From positions 1-64,000 of the forward strand of contig NZ_JSXI01000027.1 of NCBI RefSeq assembly GCF_000803065.1: DNA of 64,000 bases, given 5' to 3'. Source of the stretch: Sphingomonas sp. ERG5 (GTDB lineage: Bacteria; Pseudomonadota; Alphaproteobacteria; Sphingomonadales; Sphingomonadaceae). The position numbers were made by a program, and so were the translations under genes. Every line of letters begins with the position of its first letter. Position 1 is the first letter of the stretch. Below are positions 4,857 to 63,097 of the stretch, piece by piece. Under the pieces are notes generated by a model. That model had not been told where the DNA came from. It worked only from the letters and a program-made list of their open reading frames with translations, and did no database searches.

Positions 4857-6028
4857 CCGATATTCGAACCCCGCCGCCAGCCGCGCCAGAAATCGCGACC
4901 ACGCCGGTCGCCGCCGCGCCGGTGACGGAGGAACGCGCCGCCGAAGCGCCGGCCGCTCCCGTCGGCTCGGGCTGGAAGCCGCCGCGAGACTCGCGCACTG
5001 TCCTGATCATCATCGCGGTAATCGCGGTCGCGGGGGTCCTTGCGGTGCTCGCCGCCTGGCGGCTGCCGCCCTTTGCGAGCGATTTCCAGTCGACCGACAA
5101 TGCCTATGTCCGAGGCCGCACCACAGTGATCAGCCCGCAGGTCAGCGGCTATGTGACGCAAGTGTATGTGCGCGATTTCGATGTCGTGAAGGCCGGGCAG
5201 CCGTTGGTCCAGATCGACGACCGCATCTATCGCCAGCGCGTCGAACAGGCCGGCGCGCAGGTTGCCGGGCAGGAAGCGACCCTGGCCAATAGTGAGCAGG
5301 CGGCGCGGTCGCGCGCGGCAAGCTTGCAGGCGCAGGATGCCGCGGTCGCCAATGCACAGGCGCAATTGCTGCGCGCCCAGGCCGATATGAACCGCGTCAA
5401 CGACCTGGTTACAGACGGATCGGTGTCGCTGCGCGAGCGCGACCAGACGCTGGCGGCGCTGCGCCAGGCGCAGGCGGGCGTGCTGCAGGCGCGCGCCGCG
5501 CGCGAGATCGCGCGGCAGGATATTCGCACCGTGGAAGTGGGGAAGGGCGGGCAACAGGCCGGGGTCAGCGGCGCGGAAGCGGCGCGGCGACTGGCGCAGA
5601 TCGACCTCGACAACACCATCATCCGCGCGCCCGAAACCGGGCGGCTGAGCGAAGTCGGCGTGCGGCTCGGCCAATATGTCACCAGCGGGTCGCAACTGAT
5701 GTTCCTGGTCCCGCCCGAAACCTGGGTGATCGCCAATTTCAAGGAAGCGCAGACCGCACGCATCCGCGTCGGGCAGCCGGCGAGCTTCACGGTCGACGGC
5801 CTTGCCAATGCGCGGCTGACCGGCCGGGTCGAACAGTTGTCGCCCGCGGCTGGGTCGGAATTCGCCGTGCTCAAATCGGACAATGCGACGGGCAATTTCA
5901 CCAAGGTGCCGCAACGCATCGCAGTGCGTATCCGCGTCGATCCGGGCCAGCAGCTCGCGGCGCAGCTCAGGCCCGGCATGTCGGTGCAGGCACGCGTCGA
6001 CACCGCCGGCACGCCGAAAATCCGATGA
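4853..6028 (+). CDS. HlyD/EmrA-family membrane fusion protein
   Basis: 391 aa periplasmic adaptor of the pump. A proline/alanine-rich cytoplasmic N-terminus (about 1-40) precedes one membrane anchor ('TVLIIIAVIAVAGVLAVLAAW'), then 'STDNAYVRGRTTVISPQVSGYV' of the lipoyl domain, a coiled-coil hairpin rich in Ala/Gln, and the beta-barrel. I chose the ATG at 4853, which overlaps the MFS stop (ATGA); upstream in-frame codons lie inside the MFS gene. It links the MFS transporter to the outer-membrane channel that follows. Confidence 0.93.
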   Translation: MTDIRTPPPAAPEIATTPVAAAPVTEERAAEAPAAPVGSGWKPPRDSRTVLIIIAVIAVAGVLAVLAAWRLPPFASDFQSTDNAYVRGRTTVISPQVSGYVTQVYVRDFDVVKAGQPLVQIDDRIYRQRVEQAGAQVAGQEATLANSEQAARSRAASLQAQDAAVANAQAQLLRAQADMNRVNDLVTDGSVSLRERDQTLAALRQAQAGVLQARAAREIARQDIRTVEVGKGGQQAGVSGAEAARRLAQIDLDNTIIRAPETGRLSEVGVRLGQYVTSGSQLMFLVPPETWVIANFKEAQTARIRVGQPASFTVDGLANARLTGRVEQLSPAAGSEFAVLKSDNATGNFTKVPQRIAVRIRVDPGQQLAAQLRPGMSVQARVDTAGTPKIR

Positions 6029-7416
6029 ACGCCCGGCTGCTTTCTCCGTTGCTGATCGCGGCGATGGCTGGCGCCTGCGTCGGTCCGCGACCCGAAGCGC
6101 CAGCCGCGGCCACCGTGGTGGCGCCGCCCGCCTGGCGCACCGCGCTTGGCCCGGGCGAGCCGGTGCGCGCGGATTGGTGGGCGGCGTTCGGCGATCCATT
6201 GCTGACCGGGTTGGTCGAGCGCGCTTTGGCCAATAATCCCGATCTCGCCGCCGCCGCCGCGCGGGTCGAGGAGGCGCGCGCGCAGGAACGCCTGTCGCGC
6301 GCGCAACTCTTGCCTCAGGTCAACGCCGCGGCCCCGGCATCGGAGGCACGCGCGCTCAACCCGTTCGGCATCGCGACGACAAACACCGGGGCGCAGCCGA
6401 CCATCTCGGCCAGCTATGATCTCGACCTGTTCGGCCGGCTGCGTCAGGCCAACGCCGCGACCCGCGCGCAATTGCTGGCAAGCGAAGGCGCACGCGACAC
6501 GGTCCGCCTCGGCATCGCAAGCAGCGTGGCGACCGGATATATCACGCTGCGCGCGCTCGATGCCCGGCTCGCCGTGGCGCGGGATACGCTGGCGTCGCGC
6601 GGCGAAGCGCTGCGCATCGCGCGCCGGCGTGCCGAAACCGGCTATACCTCCAACCTCGAACTGCATCAGGCCGAGGGCGAGTATCGCGCGACCGAACAGC
6701 TCGTGCCGCAGGCCGAACTCGCGATCAGCCGCCAGGAGAATGCCCTTCGCCTGCTGCTTGGCGAAACGCCCGGGGCCGTCGAGCGCGGAACCGCACTTGC
6801 GTCGTTCACCGCGCCGTCGATCCCCAACGGCCTGCCCGCTGACTTGCTGCGCCGCCGGCCCGACTTGTTCCAGGCCGAGCAGAGCCTCGTCGCGGCGGAC
6901 CGTTCGCTCGACAGCGCACGGGCGGCGATGTTGCCCAATCTCAGCCTGACCGGATCGGCTGGCCTGGTCCTGTCCACGGCACTGTCGGATCCGGTCGGCG
7001 TCTTCTCGCTCGGCGGCAGCATCCTGTCGCCGATTTTCGACGGTGGCCGGTTGCGCGCCCAGGCCGATGCCGGCGCCGCGCGCCGCGACCAGGCCGCCTT
7101 CGCCTATCGCAAGGCGGCGCTGACCGCGTTCCGCGAAGTGGACGACAGCCTGGCCGGGGTGCAGCGATCGGGTGAACAGGCCATCGCCATCGCCGGGCAG
7201 CGCGATGCGCTGGCGGCGGCGCTGCGCAATGCCAGCAACCGCTACCGCGCGGGCTATTCCTCTTATCTCGATCAGCTCGACACGCAGCGCGGCCTGCTCA
7301 CCGCCGAGCTGGCGCTGGTCCAGGCGCGCGCCGACCGGCTGACGGCTTATGTCGCGTTGTATCAGGCCTTTGGCGGAGGATGGTCGCAACGGGATGTGGA
7401 TGGCGTGTCGCGCTAA
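6025..7416 (+). CDS. Efflux RND/MFS outer-membrane lipoprotein, NodT family
   Basis: 463 aa TolC-type trimeric channel. The lipoprotein signal peptide ends in 'AMAGAC' with the acylated Cys at residue 18. Two outer-membrane efflux repeats follow, each with the usual 'NPDLAAAAARVEEARAQ' and 'RPDLFQAEQSLVAADRSLDSARAAMLPNLSL' motifs. It overlaps the HlyD gene by 4 bp and completes the pump. No gene follows on this strand for about 140 bp, so the operon probably ends here. Confidence 0.94.
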   Translation: MNARLLSPLLIAAMAGACVGPRPEAPAAATVVAPPAWRTALGPGEPVRADWWAAFGDPLLTGLVERALANNPDLAAAAARVEEARAQERLSRAQLLPQVNAAAPASEARALNPFGIATTNTGAQPTISASYDLDLFGRLRQANAATRAQLLASEGARDTVRLGIASSVATGYITLRALDARLAVARDTLASRGEALRIARRRAETGYTSNLELHQAEGEYRATEQLVPQAELAISRQENALRLLLGETPGAVERGTALASFTAPSIPNGLPADLLRRRPDLFQAEQSLVAADRSLDSARAAMLPNLSLTGSAGLVLSTALSDPVGVFSLGGSILSPIFDGGRLRAQADAGAARRDQAAFAYRKAALTAFREVDDSLAGVQRSGEQAIAIAGQRDALAAALRNASNRYRAGYSSYLDQLDTQRGLLTAELALVQARADRLTAYVALYQAFGGGWSQRDVDGVSR

Positions 7417-7553
7417 CCTGAGCTCGAGGGCTGGGAGGCGGGCGGCAAACCACACTGCCGCTCCACGGCACTAAACTGTCATTGTCACTCGTTATAGCGA
7501 CAGACAATACGCCGATTGCGATCTATGTTCGACCACGAGCCTTGAGGAGGCAC

Positions 7554-7727
7554 ATGATGTGGAGCTTGTCGATTGTTGCCGCCATCGTCGCAATTACAGC
7601 AGCAGCTGCGATCAAGGTGATTGGCGATTTACGCCAGCGCAGGCGCGAGCAGCGGCGCGACCGGTTCTTCGTGCATACTTTTGAACTGCCGAATGATGAC
7701 AGGAAATTGCCGGAAGGTTGGCGTTAG
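7554..7727 (+). CDS. Small single-pass membrane protein, unknown function
   Basis: 57 aa starting at ATG 7554 (or 7557). The start is set by the strong GAGGAGG at 7544-7550; an upstream in-frame codon at 7482 has no such site. One hydrophobic helix covers residues 3-23 (WSLSIVAAIVAITAAAAIKV), followed by a strongly basic stretch 'RQRRREQRRDR' and a polar tail ending 'LPEGWR'. The basic side should face the cytoplasm. I do not recognise a family. It stands alone, convergent with the catalase gene. Confidence 0.6.
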   Translation: MMWSLSIVAAIVAITAAAAIKVIGDLRQRRREQRRDRFFVHTFELPNDDRKLPEGWR

Positions 7728-7947: not shown

Positions 7948-10047
<2,100 letters not shown>

Positions 10048-53137: not shown

Positions 53138-53872
53138 TTATTCCGCGGGAGCGAGTGGAAAAATTTCCGACGGCAGGACAATCGTCGCATACATCAGTGA
53201 AGAGAGCTGGGCCGGCGTAAGCGCCGATGGCTCACGGTCGGGCCGATCGACTGTCGCCGCAATCGCATGTGCCAGCCATAGCGCAAGCGCGATTTCGGCG
53301 AGCAGCTGCCGATTATAGCCGGGCAGCGCGACCAGGGCGAAATAGCTCAGCCACAGCCGATCGATATCGGCGAGATAGGCCGGATCGCTGAAATAGCTGA
53401 CGGCCATACCATACTCGGCCAGGAGGACCCGTATTGCTTCCCGTAACCCGTCACGCCAGGCGACGGCATCGCCGACTGGCTGGCAATATAGCGCCGCGAT
53501 TTTCGGGAAGTCGTGGATCGGTGCCGGCAGTTGTTTGAAGCTGGCGACAAAGCTGTCGCCATAGGGAGCTTCGCCGGCGATGAACGCGCCGGCGGCATTC
53601 TGGGCGGCGCCCTGTTCCGATCGTGCGGTGACCAGCGCGGTGTAGAAGGGGGCGGGTGACCCCGGAGCGTTATAGTCGATGAAGCCAGGAGCCAGCGTCT
53701 TCTCGCTTCCGGAGAACGCCAGATCGTGGTCCATCCCGAATTCAATGACGTGACGATCCATCGTGTTCCCCATCCCGTTCGATGGACGCTGATACCCGGC
53801 GGTCCCTTGCGAGGAAAGCGCAATGAGCGATGCGCGCGAGGCGTTCGGCCCCTGGAGCGGGAAGTCGTCCAT
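53138..53872 (-). CDS. Hypothetical protein, 244 aa
   Basis: No family recognised. It is probably soluble, with a helical C-terminal half ('IDRLWLSYFALVALPGYNRQLLAEIALALWLAHAIAATVD') that could include one membrane-associated helix. The start is uncertain: an ATG at 53761 (MDRHVIEFGMDHD) would remove a low-complexity N-terminus. It is divergent from the TonB receptor gene; the 90 bp between them hold the ModE-like dyad, so it could be co-regulated. Confidence 0.6.
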   Translation of the reverse strand: MDDFPLQGPNASRASLIALSSQGTAGYQRPSNGMGNTMDRHVIEFGMDHDLAFSGSEKTLAPGFIDYNAPGSPAPFYTALVTARSEQGAAQNAAGAFIAGEAPYGDSFVASFKQLPAPIHDFPKIAALYCQPVGDAVAWRDGLREAIRVLLAEYGMAVSYFSDPAYLADIDRLWLSYFALVALPGYNRQLLAEIALALWLAHAIAATVDRPDREPSALTPAQLSSLMYATIVLPSEIFPLAPAE

Positions 53873-53927
53873 CGCACCATTCAGACAGAATCCGATCCAA
53901 TTAGTCTCTCGCGGATTATCGTAAAAT

Positions 53928-53952
53928 CGTTATGTGGCTCAGCACCATAACG
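53928..53952. promoter_or_regulatory. ModE-like dyad upstream of the TonB receptor
   Basis: CGTTATG (53928-53934) and CATAACG (53946-53952) are perfect 7-bp arms, 11 bp apart, ending 10 bp before the start codon at 53963. ModE operators of enterobacteria have similar CGTTAT/ATAACG halves at nearly this spacing. The downstream operon encodes a ModE-like protein, so autoregulation is likely. A TAAAAT hexamer at 53922-53927 may be the -10. Confidence 0.6.
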
Positions 53953-53962
53953 GGGAAACATC

Positions 53963-56410
53963 ATGGCCGCGTCATTCGGGAAGTTGTTGTTGCTCGCCAG
54001 CGTCTGCCTGCCGACCGCCGCACTGGCGAAAACGCCGGTCACGCCGTCGAGCGCTGCCCCGACCGTCACCGATGAAGCCCAGCCGGCCGATGCGGCGGAC
54101 AGCGATATGGACATATTGGTCACGGCGCGCCGTCGTGCCGAGGACGCGCAGAAAATTCCCGGCAGCCTGTCGGTCATCAGCGGCGCGCTGCTCGACCGGT
54201 CCTACACCGTCAATACGCAGCAATTGTCGCAGCTGGTCCCCGCGCTGAACTACAGCTCGGCCAATCCACGCAACACCGCCTTCACCATTCGCGGCCTCGG
54301 CAGCAGTGTGGTGGCGGTCAGCCAGGCCAATGACGGGCTTGAACCGGGCGTCGGCTATTATGTCGATCAGGTCTATCATGCCCGGCCCGCGACCGCGGCG
54401 TTCGACTTCAGCGATATCGAGCGGGTCGAGGTCCTACGTGGGCCGCAGGGCACGTTGTTCGGCAAGAACAGCACTGCCGGCGCGATCAACATCACCACGC
54501 GCGCGCCGACTTTCGATACCGAAGGGACAGCGGAGCTCAGCTATGGCAGCTTCAACTTCGTCCAGGCCAAGGCGGCGGTGTCCGGTGCGCTGGTCGGCGA
54601 TACGGTTGCCGGCCGCCTGTCGGTGGTCAGCACGCGGCGCGATGGCGTGATCGACAATGTGCGTACCGGCGGCCACAACAATGCGATCGGCAATCAGGCG
54701 ATCCGCGGACAATTGCTGTTCCGGCCGTCCGAAGACCTGTCGATCCGCCTCAGCGCCGACTTCACCAATTTCGAAAGCAATTGCTGCACTCAGGTCTATT
54801 ACCGTGTCGCCGAACGGCCCGGAACGCTGCGCACGCCCGCACGGCAATATCCCGCGCTTGCAGCGCATTTCGGCTATACGCCGCCGAGCCTCAATCCCTA
54901 TGACCGCAAGACCGACATCGACGCGAAACTCGGCGTGAAGACCAATGAAGGCGGCGTTGCGGCGATCGCCGACTGGAATGTCGGGCCGGTCACGCTCACG
55001 TCGGTCAGCGCGTGGCGCTTCTGGAACTGGGATGCGGCGAATGACCGCGATTATACCGGCATCCAGATCCAGACCGAGCAACACATCCCGTCGCGCCAGG
55101 ATCAGTTCAGCCAGGAACTGCGTTTCGCATCGAATGGCGACGGCGCGCTGAGCTATGTCGGCGGGCTCTATTTCTTCCGCCAGCGCGTCATCGGGCGGCC
55201 GATCTCGATCTATGGCGCCGACGCCGCCTATTGGCTGATCGGCCCGACCACGGCCACGCCGATTCCACCGGGTAGCCCGGCGGGCACGCCAACCCCGCCG
55301 CCGACACCAGTGCCCGGTACTTTGCTTGACGGTTATGGCACTGACGGCCGCACCGATTTCCAGTCGAACAGCTATGCAGCGTTCGGCGAGGTCAATTGGC
55401 GCCCGATCGATCGGCTGACGCTGACCGGCGGCCTGCGCTACACCTATGAGGATAAGAAGGGCAGCTACGACACTTTCGTGTTCGGTGGATTGCCGACCGG
55501 CAACACTGCGCTGATCAACGCCAAGCTCTCGATCCTGCGCGGCCAGAGCTATAAGGCGAAGGTCAATGACGGCAGCCTGACCGGCCGGGCCAACATCACC
55601 TACGCCTTCACCGATGACGTGCTTGGCTATGCGAGCTTCGCGCGCGGCGCAAAGTCGGGCGGGATCAATATGTCGGGCCTGCCGCTCAATGGCGCGAACC
55701 TGCCCGCGCTCAACACCGCCGTCGTCCGCCCCGAACAAAATACCAATTATGAGATCGGCCTGAAGACGCGGCTGTTCGACCGGCGGCTGATCTTCAACAT
55801 CGATGGCTTCTACACGCGGGTGACCGACTTCCAGGCCAATGTCACCGATCAGCGCGCGGCAGCGGCGCTGCGCACCTATCTCGCCAACATCCCGCGCGTG
55901 ACGGTCAAGGGGTTCGAGACCGATGCGACCGCCGCCGTCACGTCCAATCTGACATTGCGGGCGAGCGTTGCCTATGCCGATGGCAAATACGCCTCTTATC
56001 CGGCGGGGCCGTGCCCGATCGAGCGGATCGGCAACAGCACCACGGTCTGCGATCTGACCGGCCAGCAACTGCCCAGCCTGCCGAAATGGGCCTATACGCT
56101 GGGCGCCGACTACACCCAGCCGCTTGGCGCTATCGGCAGTGCCTTTCTGCACGCGGATTCCAACACCCGCACCCGCCAGCTCGGCGATCCGACGGGATCG
56201 GCCTATACCGTCATCGACGGCTATACCGTGGTCAATGGCAGCATCGGCTTCCACTCCGCGCATGGCTGGGAACTGGCGGTGTTCGCGCGCAACCTGTTCG
56301 ACAAGGATTATATCCAGAACGTCACTATCCAGGCGGGTAATTCCGGCCTGATCCTGGCAACGCCCAGCGACCCGCGCACCATCGGGATTACGTTTCGCGC
56401 GCAGCGATGA
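53963..56410 (+). CDS. TonB-dependent receptor, candidate molybdate/tungstate receptor
   Basis: 815 aa. Signal peptide about 1-22 (ending AALAKT), TonB box 'DMDILVTARRRAEDAQKIPGSLSV', plug (about 60-175) with 'ERVEVLRGPQGTLFGKNSTAGAINI', then the barrel with the final strand '...TIGITFRAQR'. An external loop near 430-455 is Pro/Thr-rich ('TATPIPPGSPAGTPTPPPTPVPG'). The ModE-like gene follows 12 bp later, and a ModE-like dyad lies upstream, which suggests oxyanion uptake. No receptor for molybdate is established to my knowledge, so the substrate is inference. Confidence 0.9.
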   Translation: MAASFGKLLLLASVCLPTAALAKTPVTPSSAAPTVTDEAQPADAADSDMDILVTARRRAEDAQKIPGSLSVISGALLDRSYTVNTQQLSQLVPALNYSSANPRNTAFTIRGLGSSVVAVSQANDGLEPGVGYYVDQVYHARPATAAFDFSDIERVEVLRGPQGTLFGKNSTAGAINITTRAPTFDTEGTAELSYGSFNFVQAKAAVSGALVGDTVAGRLSVVSTRRDGVIDNVRTGGHNNAIGNQAIRGQLLFRPSEDLSIRLSADFTNFESNCCTQVYYRVAERPGTLRTPARQYPALAAHFGYTPPSLNPYDRKTDIDAKLGVKTNEGGVAAIADWNVGPVTLTSVSAWRFWNWDAANDRDYTGIQIQTEQHIPSRQDQFSQELRFASNGDGALSYVGGLYFFRQRVIGRPISIYGADAAYWLIGPTTATPIPPGSPAGTPTPPPTPVPGTLLDGYGTDGRTDFQSNSYAAFGEVNWRPIDRLTLTGGLRYTYEDKKGSYDTFVFGGLPTGNTALINAKLSILRGQSYKAKVNDGSLTGRANITYAFTDDVLGYASFARGAKSGGINMSGLPLNGANLPALNTAVVRPEQNTNYEIGLKTRLFDRRLIFNIDGFYTRVTDFQANVTDQRAAAALRTYLANIPRVTVKGFETDATAAVTSNLTLRASVAYADGKYASYPAGPCPIERIGNSTTVCDLTGQQLPSLPKWAYTLGADYTQPLGAIGSAFLHADSNTRTRQLGDPTGSAYTVIDGYTVVNGSIGFHSAHGWELAVFARNLFDKDYIQNVTIQAGNSGLILATPSDPRTIGITFRAQR

Positions 56411-56422
56411 GTATAGGGAGGC

Positions 56423-57250
56423 ATGACCGTGCCTCCTGATCAAGACTCGTCCGGTTCGATTGACGGCGTGCATGCTACCATCACGCTGCAAAAGCCGCAG
56501 GCAGGGCGAGTGGGTGCCGATCGCATCGCGCTGCTCCGCGCCATTCGTCGTGGCGGTTCGATCAGCCAGGCCGCGCGCGACATTGGCCTCAGCTATAAGT
56601 CGGCCTGGGACGCGGTGCAGATCCTCAACAATCTGTTCGATCGCCCATTGGTGCTGCCTTCGGCCGGCGGCAAGGATGGCGGTACGAGCCTGATCACCCC
56701 GGCTGGCGAGATCGTGCTCGACGCCTATGATGCGGCCGAGGCAGAACTCGCCGGCACCATGGCGCGGCTCGAAACCGAGCTGGCGCATGGGCTGTCGCTC
56801 AAGCCATTATTATGGGGAATCGCCATGAAGACGAGTGCACGCAACACATTGCGCGGTACGGTCACCCGCGTCACGCCCGGTGCGGTCAATGCCGAGATCG
56901 TGCTCGAGATCGCGCCCGGCGTCGAGATCGTCGCGATCATCACGCGGGAAAGCGCGATCGACCTCGATCTCGCCCCCAGCAAGATCGCGCTCGCGCTGAT
57001 CAAGTCGAGCTTCGTCATCCTGGCGCAGGGCGATGCGTCGCTGCGCACCTCGGCGCGCAACACGCTCGCGGGCACTGTGGTCCGGCGCGAGGACGGCCCG
57101 GTGAGCAGCGAGATCGTGCTCGAAATGAGTGAAGGCAAAACGTTGACCGCGACCGTGACGCGCGAGAGCGCCGAAGCGCTGGACCTCCGGATCGGCAGTC
57201 ACGCACTCGCGCTGATCAAGGCGAGCCATGTGATTCTGGCGATCGAGTGA
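56423..57250 (+). CDS. modE: ModE-like molybdate-dependent regulator with two TOBE domains
   Basis: 275 aa. The N-terminal winged helix ('RIALLRAIRRGGSISQAARDIGLSYKSAWDAVQILNNLFDRPLV') is that of ModE. It is followed by two tandem TOBE/Mop domains (about 135-202 and 208-274), each starting 'K/RTSARNTLxGTVxR', the molybdate-binding fold. This is the full-length E. coli-like layout. GGGAGG precedes the ATG. It is in an operon with the TonB receptor; no modABC transporter genes are in the window. Confidence 0.9.
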   Translation: MTVPPDQDSSGSIDGVHATITLQKPQAGRVGADRIALLRAIRRGGSISQAARDIGLSYKSAWDAVQILNNLFDRPLVLPSAGGKDGGTSLITPAGEIVLDAYDAAEAELAGTMARLETELAHGLSLKPLLWGIAMKTSARNTLRGTVTRVTPGAVNAEIVLEIAPGVEIVAIITRESAIDLDLAPSKIALALIKSSFVILAQGDASLRTSARNTLAGTVVRREDGPVSSEIVLEMSEGKTLTATVTRESAEALDLRIGSHALALIKASHVILAIE

Positions 57251-61573: not shown

Positions 61574-63097
61574 TCAGGCCATGGTCCGCGGCGGCGGCGG
61601 TGCAGCGCGACAATATTGTTCCACATAAGCCTGATGCGCGGGCAGCGTGGCGACGGTTCTGGCGACAGTGTCGCGCAAGGTCGTGAGCAGCCGATTCAGT
61701 TCCTCCGCGCCCAGCTTCTCCGCGATCGGGTGATAGGCGCGCGGCATGATCCCTTGCCCCATCATCACCTGCACCCAGCTGTTTTCCGCGAACAGCTCCT
61801 CATTCTTGCGGAAAACACGGCCGGTCTCGCGGAACAGTTCGATCTTTTGGGCGAGCGAGTCCGGAATCTCCATGTCGATGCAATGCCGCCAGAACGGGCT
61901 GTCGCGGCGCTCGGTCGCCTTATAGTGCAGGATGATGAAGTCACGGATTTGCGTGATGTCCTGCAATTGCTGTTCGTTGAATTCCGCGGCGTCGCGTTCG
62001 CTGACCCGACCGTTCGGCATCAGCCGGATGATGCGCAGCACGGCGCGCTGGATGAGATGAACGGTGGTTGCCTCGAGCGGCTCGACAAAACCGCCAGCCA
62101 GCCCGACCGCGACACAGTTGCGATACCATTGCCGCCGCCGCACGCCGCCCTTGAAGCTGAGATGGATGGGCTCGATCAGCGGTTCGCCCACGCTGGAGAC
62201 CAGTCGATCGAGCGCCGCATCGCGTGAGAGATAACGGCTGCAATAAACGATGCCGCTGCCCATGCGATGCTGCAACGGGATGCGCCACTGCCACCCGGCA
62301 TCATGCGCGATCGCCTGGGTATAGGGTTGCGGCGGCCCGAGATGCCTGGTCTGCAGTGCGATGGCGGAATCGTTCGGCAGCCAATGGGTCCAGTCCTCGA
62401 AACCGGCATGCAATGCGCCCTCGATCAGCAATCCGCGGAAACCGGTGCAGTCGATGAAGAAGTCGCCTTCGATCCGGCGATCGCCTTCCAGCACCAGCGC
62501 GGCGATGTCGCCGCTTTCCCCATCCAGCTCCACACGGGCGATCTTGCCCTCGATGCGTTTCGCACCGTCCGCTTCGGCCAGCTTGCGCAAATACCGGCCA
62601 TAGAGCGTGGCATCGACATGATAGGCATAGTTCATCCGGTCGTCGGGCAGGTGCGCGAATTTGCCCTGCAACCCGGCCACCAGTTCCAGGCAATAATCGT
62701 CATAGGATTGTTCGTGCCCGCGCGTCCGGCCGTGAAGCCAGAAATGCTGGAAGCCCGCTGACCAATGATCCTTTCCCGACAGTCCGAAGCTGTGGAAATA
62801 CCGGTCTCCGTCCTGCTTCCAATTGTCGAACAGGATGCCCAGCTTGAATGTCGCCTGGGTCTCCCGCATGAATTCGGGCTCGGGGATTCCCAGGATACGG
62901 TTGAAATTCACCAGCGGTGGAATGGTCGATTCTCCGACTCCGATCGTCCCGATCGCTTCGGATTCGACGATGGTCAGGTCGACAGCGGCGCCCAGCGTTC
63001 GCGCGATCGCTGCCGCCATCATCCAACCCGCAGTTCCACCGCCCGCGATCACGATCCGGCGCGTTTGCTTGTCCCTGCCGATCATTGCTTGAGGCAT
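61574..63097 (-). CDS. Flavin-dependent tryptophan halogenase family protein
   Basis: 507 aa. FAD site 'IVIAGGGTAGWMMAAAIA' (about 15-32) and 'GVGESTIPPL'. The halogenase signature WxWxIP is present as W269-Q-W-R-I-P274, and Lys85 in 'ATFKLGILF' corresponds to the chloramine-forming Lys79 of PrnA. 'GGFVEPLEATTVHLIQRAV' carries the conserved Glu region. All known catalytic residues of the family are therefore kept. Such genes often neighbour TonB receptors in sphingomonads, but none is beside this one. The substrate need not be tryptophan. An in-frame ATG at 63085 is an alternative start. Confidence 0.92.
   Translation of the reverse strand: MPQAMIGRDKQTRRIVIAGGGTAGWMMAAAIARTLGAAVDLTIVESEAIGTIGVGESTIPPLVNFNRILGIPEPEFMRETQATFKLGILFDNWKQDGDRYFHSFGLSGKDHWSAGFQHFWLHGRTRGHEQSYDDYCLELVAGLQGKFAHLPDDRMNYAYHVDATLYGRYLRKLAEADGAKRIEGKIARVELDGESGDIAALVLEGDRRIEGDFFIDCTGFRGLLIEGALHAGFEDWTHWLPNDSAIALQTRHLGPPQPYTQAIAHDAGWQWRIPLQHRMGSGIVYCSRYLSRDAALDRLVSSVGEPLIEPIHLSFKGGVRRRQWYRNCVAVGLAGGFVEPLEATTVHLIQRAVLRIIRLMPNGRVSERDAAEFNEQQLQDITQIRDFIILHYKATERRDSPFWRHCIDMEIPDSLAQKIELFRETGRVFRKNEELFAENSWVQVMMGQGIMPRAYHPIAEKLGAEELNRLLTTLRDTVARTVATLPAHQAYVEQYCRAAPPPPRTMA

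Follow-up and report, generated by a model that had tools for sequence, protein, structure and literature searches.

The window analysed here is a 64,000-nucleotide stretch of Sphingomonas sp. ERG5 (assembly GCF_000803065.1, contig NZ_JSXI01000027.1, positions 1 to 64,000). It carries, between 53,928 and 57,250, a gene for a TonB-dependent outer-membrane receptor, a gene for the molybdate-responsive regulator ModE immediately behind it and, in front of both, the inverted repeat CGTTATG-N11-CATAACG, hereafter the dyad (Table 1). A preliminary description of this DNA had placed a full ModE with two Mop domains 12 bp after an 815-residue receptor; coordinates and Pfam/NCBIfam profiles bear this out. 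The dyad, CGTTATGTGGCTCAGCACCATAACG, ends exactly where that description had it, 10 bp before the receptor ATG. Its outer 7-bp arms are perfect, and over 12 bp the arms are 83% complementary.

The receptor has both expected domains, PF07715 (Plug, 66.7 bits for a cut-off of 23.9) and PF00593 (beta-barrel, 144.1 bits for a cut-off of 27). No NCBIfam family of siderophore, haem, B12 or copper receptors passed its cut-off among the best 25 of the 29 matched, the copper family scoring 30.9 bits where 472 are required. The solved structures nearest to it are siderophore receptors (4epa, the pesticin receptor), a weak match over the plug region. An AlphaFold2 model made for this receptor and its close relative in locus L045 (see below) was discarded, its mean confidence score (predicted local distance difference test, pLDDT) being 25.8.

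ModE consists of a helix–turn–helix (HTH) domain followed by two Mop/TOBE domains. Pfam gives HTH_1 28.6 bits (cut-off 26.6) and the two TOBE stretches 117.8 (cut-off 22.3); NCBIfam gives Mop 141.2 bits (cut-off 55) and ModE_repress 93.0, slightly below its cut-off of 98.5. Its closest solved sequences are those of Escherichia coli ModE (1b9m and 1o7l), and it aligns along 1b9m. In that alignment E. coli Ser126, Arg128 and Lys183, which we take to be molybdate ligands of the Mop domains, are matched by a TSARN motif and a lysine; Arg169 is not conserved. The protein has a single match, itself, in its own genome at E ≤ 0.001. The short gap between the two genes, with its GGGAGG, suggests a single transcript. 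A scan of 53780–54000 for consensus promoters gave no match.

Table 1. Features of the receptor–modE region, with one neighbouring gene (positions in the window)
Feature	Position	Strand	Details
Dyad CGTTATG-N11-CATAACG, putative ModE operator, 25 bp	53928-53952	.	pattern and comparison with relatives
TonB-dependent outer-membrane receptor, 815 aa	53963-56410	+	Plug ~54146-54484, barrel ~54875-56296
Gap between receptor and modE, 12 bp	56411-56422	+	GGGAGG, ribosome-binding-like, at 56416-56421 (by eye)
Full-length ModE, 275 aa	56423-57250	+	HTH ~56522-56710, Mop 1 56825-57010, Mop 2 57038-57229
Tryptophan halogenase family gene	61577-63097	minus	Pfam 611.5 bits; a few kb away from receptor and modE, with no apparent connection to them

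Occurrence of the dyad

With up to two mismatches allowed, the dyad pattern has one match in the window, this one, without mismatch, where 0.11 is expected; 11 of 100 shuffles of the window contained a match. In the whole 5.74-Mb genome, CGTTAT and ATAACG separated by 10 to 15 bases meet in two places, upstream of the receptor and inside hflC (a gene named by eye).

Among 298 family genomes drawn, the window ModE had matches at E ≤ 1e-15 in 4 (its own included), two of them partial. The nearest, in genome G110 (59% identity), goes with the same 25-bp element, CGTTATGTAGCCCACCTACATAACG, 3 bp before modA (L024:64-88), itself identified by TIGR01256 at 224.7 bits. A search at class level found matches to this ModE in 6 of 385 genomes, again including its own; one of them, G636, has a perfect copy of the dyad 22 bp before modE (L034:6190-6214). 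We further collected the best 80 of at least 568 ModE relatives in named genomes, in loci amounting to 1.4 Mb. Near-perfect dyads (13/14 or better, with a spacer of 10 or 11) number 14 there, against 1 for reversed halves. Thirteen of them lie within 0.85 kb of modE, in DNA that makes up about 14% of the total. The inverted repeat CGTTAT/ATAACG thus stands before molybdenum genes of relatives – in G110, in G636 and in these loci – and the dyad is, by this comparison, of ModE-operator type.

The fourteenth near-perfect dyad precedes a second receptor–modE pair, in Sphingomonas sp. PP-CE-3G-477 (L045). The receptor is 75% and the following ModE 74% identical to those of the window, and the dyad (13/14, L045:7483-7507) ends 14 bp before the receptor ATG. 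This is the sole locus with a receptor of the window's kind among the best 80 of the ModE loci.

The receptor clade and its ModE-type boxes

Across 397 family genomes, with few candidates scored per genome, the receptor has matches at E ≤ 1e-120 in at least 158. Among the matches listed, 23 genomes (the window's included) stand at 56% identity or more, and a drop to 51% or less follows. We built a tree of 44 sequences, namely the window and 22 orthologue loci, 14 lower-scoring loci, L039, L040, L045 and the plasmid paralogues L041–L044. One branch, with support 100/100, separates 26 orthologues from 18 paralogues. The receptors of the window and L045 pair inside the orthologue clade (support 100/99); those of Sphingomonas sp. 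NY01 and G736 are near-copies. Certain residues, among them H139, Q121, E329, Q370, Q373 and R542, are shared by 25 or all 26 of the orthologues and seldom occur in the paralogues. Several paralogues share the gene order pyrG-receptor-lolC-lolD (L177, L179 and L191 by eye; L042 of S. parapaucimobilis by annotation), L191 belonging to the window's own genome. In some paralogues a neighbour that might have been ModC was rejected, since it looks like LolD beside LolC.

A gene for a ModE-type HTH or for a Mop protein adjoins 14 of the 26 orthologues and none of the 18 paralogues (p = 1.4e-4); adjoining means within 180 bp or with overlapping calls of open reading frames (ORFs), and four of the paralogues were judged by plasmid annotation only. 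The neighbour is a full ModE in the window and L045, a Mop gene with an HTH-only ModE on plasmids of Sphingomonas sp. NY01 and Sphingomonas taxi and in G736, a Mop gene in L158, and an HTH-only ModE in L161, L162, L163, L164, L168, L172, L173 and L175. The arrangement is of at least three kinds: receptor-modE, Mop-modE-receptor, and modE convergent to the receptor (L172, L175). Beside the other 12 orthologues no ModE or Mop gene was found. The NY01 plasmid also carries modABC, some 6 kb from its receptor gene. The association extends to whole genomes: a ModE HTH (E ≤ 1e-6) is present in 21 of the 23 orthologue genomes, G217 and G730 having no match, and in 104 of the 374 others (p = 1.1e-9). 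All 23 have MoaA over its cut-off, and ModA was found in 17. In G288, G094, G206 and G156 an HTH-only ModE sits beside modA, away from the receptor.

The preliminary description had let its reading depend on recurrence of the dyad at homologous loci. The outcome is mixed: the dyad type itself recurs in one of the 25 other orthologues, that of L045, but in 22 of the other 24 a different box of ModE type takes its place. This box reads CTATATAC-N5-GATATA, that is, TATAT-N8-ATATA. In core and spacing it agrees with the consensus for E. coli ModE, given in the part of the source available to us as ATCGNTATATA-N6-TATATANCGAT (PMC545781). Those 22 score at least 11/14, as does none of the 14 paralogues scored, the best reaching 9 (p = 1.2e-8). 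The two misses are L168 (score 10) and L157 (score 8), the latter being G217, which thus has neither a ModE match nor the box. Apart from the window's own, 16 orthologue genomes have modA, at 17 loci; boxes of 11 or more occur at 7 of these, around the called starts in G031, G057, G171 and the second copy of G686, and between modE and modA in G288, G206 and G156. A box of this type precedes modA on the NY01 plasmid as well.

Within the clade, as we read these loci, the derived pair formed by the window and L045 has exchanged an HTH-only ModE (in some relatives with a separate Mop protein) and its box for a full ModE and its dyad, keeping the receptor as target. Because sensor type and box type both change within the clade, molybdenum-type control would have survived the swap.

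Sites with at most one mismatch to the TATAT-type box stand at 12 places before the receptor in 11 orthologue genomes and at 11 places elsewhere, the latter perhaps by chance. Two of the latter lie about 160–200 bp before paoA, the gene for the iron–sulphur subunit of a molybdenum aldehyde oxidoreductase, in two genomes of one genus (G171, L204:1501-1518; G287, L205:1501-1518), and are possibly ModE activation sites or chance matches. Two others precede genes for 172-residue exported proteins with no match to a Pfam family, in two genera (G686, L195:1501-1537; G244, L213, minus strand; proteins alike by eye). In G244 the box lies divergent to a TonB receptor. Since the sites that do not belong to the receptor fail to outnumber those of the reversed control, paoA and the exported protein are leads only.

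Of the 80 ModE loci, 9 hold a TonB receptor of some kind according to a profile search (L045, itself of the clade, and L064, L066, L087, L091, L092, L101, L103, L112). In L092 a box lies about 470 bp before the receptor, with a small gene between. An independent case is L064, from Ectothiorhodospira lacustris (L064:2788-10870), where modE, modA, modB and modC, the last three over their NCBIfam cut-offs, are followed by two TonB receptors. Both stand behind boxes of ModE type: the first is preceded by CGTTATGTTTCATTGTATACAACG (6363-6386) and, by eye, by CGCTATAT-N8-ATATAACG, the second by CGTTATATACAAGAAAACATAGCG (8821-8844). The first is 27% identical to the window receptor over 171 residues; the second has no match to it at E ≤ 1e-5.

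That second receptor belongs to another subfamily, with members 36–51% identical to it at L092:3538-6052, L112:2790-4811 and L213:1583 onward. Those of Dechloromonas have a ModE box or modE in their vicinity, and that of the sphingomonad G244 has a TATAT box next to it. In Ectothiorhodospira marina a ModE-type box (7997-8020, within L070:7063-8976) has a tungstate-binding-like gene on one side and a TauE/SafE-like transporter on the other, both named by eye.

Proposed function and its rivals

Control of the receptor by ModE and molybdate, as the preliminary description proposed, is strongly supported by comparison: the dyad at modA or modE elsewhere, the linkage of receptor and ModE, their co-occurrence and the operator swap all point to it, and we hold it very probable that the receptor is ModE-controlled. 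The putative operator lies nearly as close to its gene as that of modA in G110, a position that points to a receptor repressed when molybdate is high and expressed when it is low. From binding of ModE at the dyad, through repression, to a molybdenum ligand, the chain is one that we infer from sequence. The last link follows the simplest course: a receptor released at molybdenum shortage would most simply import molybdenum.

The dyad, the receptor and modE would then make up a self-regulated molybdenum-scavenging operon. With molybdate plentiful, ModE, holding it in its Mop domains, would occupy the 25-bp dyad and block transcription of both genes; with molybdenum short, the block would be lifted and the receptor made. 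Powered by TonB, it would bring molybdenum into the periplasm, from where ModABC, encoded elsewhere in the genome, or another oxyanion transporter would carry it inward. A chelate or metallophore complex would be a likelier cargo than bare molybdate, because the usual ligands of TonB receptors are bulky or scarce. Import of molybdate or tungstate, or of molybdenum in chelated form, much as the preliminary description suggested, stays the best reading, argued from regulation and neighbourhood. We put at roughly two in three the probability that the receptor imports molybdenum, free or chelated, when it is scarce. With slightly less assurance, we also think it probable that the clade consists of dedicated molybdenum-uptake receptors, kept under molybdenum control through exchange of sensor and operator, and that, given the Ectothiorhodospira case, TonB receptors were enlisted for molybdenum more than once in Gram-negative bacteria.

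A number of observations weigh against this. Molybdate is small and may need no TonB receptor. Genome-wide, a looser form of the dyad has two matches, as has its reversed control, which is not above chance, so it is the dyad's position that carries the argument. The expectation that the dyad would also precede modABC, true of G110, fails in the window's own genome: the 12 kb around modABC (L027, ~5500–7660) contain no match to the dyad of 12/14 or better, modA has neither dyad nor TATAT-type box upstream, and ModC is short, ending without a TOBE domain. Taken together, absent dyad and short ModC suggest that the window ModE may serve the receptor alone. Six of the 23 orthologue genomes (G244, G714, G740, G228, G730, G246) have MoaA but gave no ModA match at E ≤ 1e-20. 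Of the 125 of 397 family genomes with a ModE HTH match, a single one has it above the model's curated cut-off. Pairing is rare outside the clade: in the 80 ModE loci a box lies directly before a TonB receptor only in L045 and L064. The TATAT consensus, moreover, was read from the orthologues before they were scored, so that their high scores are partly built in; the independent part of the box evidence lies in the paralogues and the modA sites, and 10 of the 17 modA loci have no box of 11 or more. Two orthologues scored 7 and 8 at miscalled ORF starts (L160, L172) and reached 11 and 14 in a wider rescan made without shuffles. L174, from G730, scores 11 in a genome with no ModE match, and 5 of 200 shuffles did as well. 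Finally, one-mismatch sites are no commoner in the 23 orthologue genomes than in the reversed control (25 rows against 30).

What else could a receptor do under ModE? E. coli ModE activates molybdoenzyme operons, and the receptor might import an organic compound broken down by a molybdoenzyme, ModE switching it on when molybdenum is plentiful. The boxes upstream of paoA in G171 and G287 fit this idea. The receptor boxes, however, end 8–61 bp before the start, as measured in the 16 orthologues with a called start downstream of the box, and the dyads 10 bp (window) and 14 bp (L045) before it, nearer than the paoA boxes, and no catabolic gene seemed conserved beside the orthologues, judging by eye among the neighbours listed; we find the idea unlikely. 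Slightly less likely again is a receptor whose ligand is tungstate, or an iron siderophore able to bind molybdate too, with molybdenum control preventing or exploiting side uptake. Mop domains and ModE often do not separate tungstate from molybdate, the nearest solved structures are, weakly and over the plug region, those of siderophore receptors, and the S. taxi plasmid has, about 2 kb from its orthologue, a gene with a siderophore-receptor annotation; against this, the annotation of the NY01 plasmid shows no siderophore gene within 8 kb. Azotobacter mutants lacking catechol siderophores are, in the portion of the study seen, tungsten-sensitive (PMC6448029).

There is also the view that dyad and adjacency are accidental or merely inherited, and that the receptor is unrelated to molybdenum. 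Sphingomonads have a great many TonB receptors (142 first-look candidates in the window's genome), AT-rich box-like elements could be promoter parts, and nearly half of the orthologues are those without a ModE or Mop gene alongside. Set against at least three gene arrangements, a box swapped together with its sensor, and clean paralogue controls, this view seems to us very improbable. Chance adjacency, tungstate-only and activator models all rank below molybdenum import.

Relation to known systems

The crossing of the outer membrane by molybdenum is usually left to porins. If the reading of molybdenum import is true, a clade of ModE-tied receptors extends TonB-dependent uptake to an oxyanion metal, gives a handle on molybdenum-chelating metallophores, and provides a test case of a regulon that keeps its input while sensor and DNA site are replaced. 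The loci are present in named strains, Sphingomonas taxi, Sphingomonas sp. NY01 and Sphingomonas sp. PP-CE-3G-477, and are therefore directly testable. In the open-access literature searched, as far as its accessible parts go, we met no description of the receptor clade or of a ModE-controlled TonB receptor, and relative to it clade-wide evidence for a molybdenum TonB receptor seems to be new.

The regulatory half of the system has its model in E. coli, where ModE likewise joins an HTH to two Mop domains and uses CGTTAT/ATAACG half-sites close before the controlled gene. At 25 bp, the dyad of the window exceeds by one base the corresponding 24-bp part of the consensus in the excerpt cited above (PMC545781). 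Unlike in E. coli, the presumed targets in the window are a TonB receptor and modE itself, and the genome's own modABC is without such a site. For the receptor half, an annotation in Azotobacter chroococcum shares the functional guess: a TonB receptor presumed to take molybdate, in a cluster with modG, modE and modABC (PMC4465626). The likeness is drawn from the description in the part of that paper seen, which is an annotation without operator analysis. A dedicated outer-membrane step for molybdate, such as we propose for the receptor, is also found in Pseudomonas aeruginosa, by another route, that of ModA and IcmP with the H2 type VI secretion system (H2-T6SS; Wang 2021, as summarized in the portion seen of the review PMC8602904). 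The same portion lists MnoT, for manganese, and OprC, for copper, as metal-specific TonB receptors induced by shortage of their metal (PMC8602904). The window receptor would resemble them as a TonB receptor that, in the reading proposed here, is induced when a non-iron metal runs short. It differs from them in its tie to the oxyanion sensor ModE, in a ligand that is putative, and in its score for the copper family, far below the cut-off.

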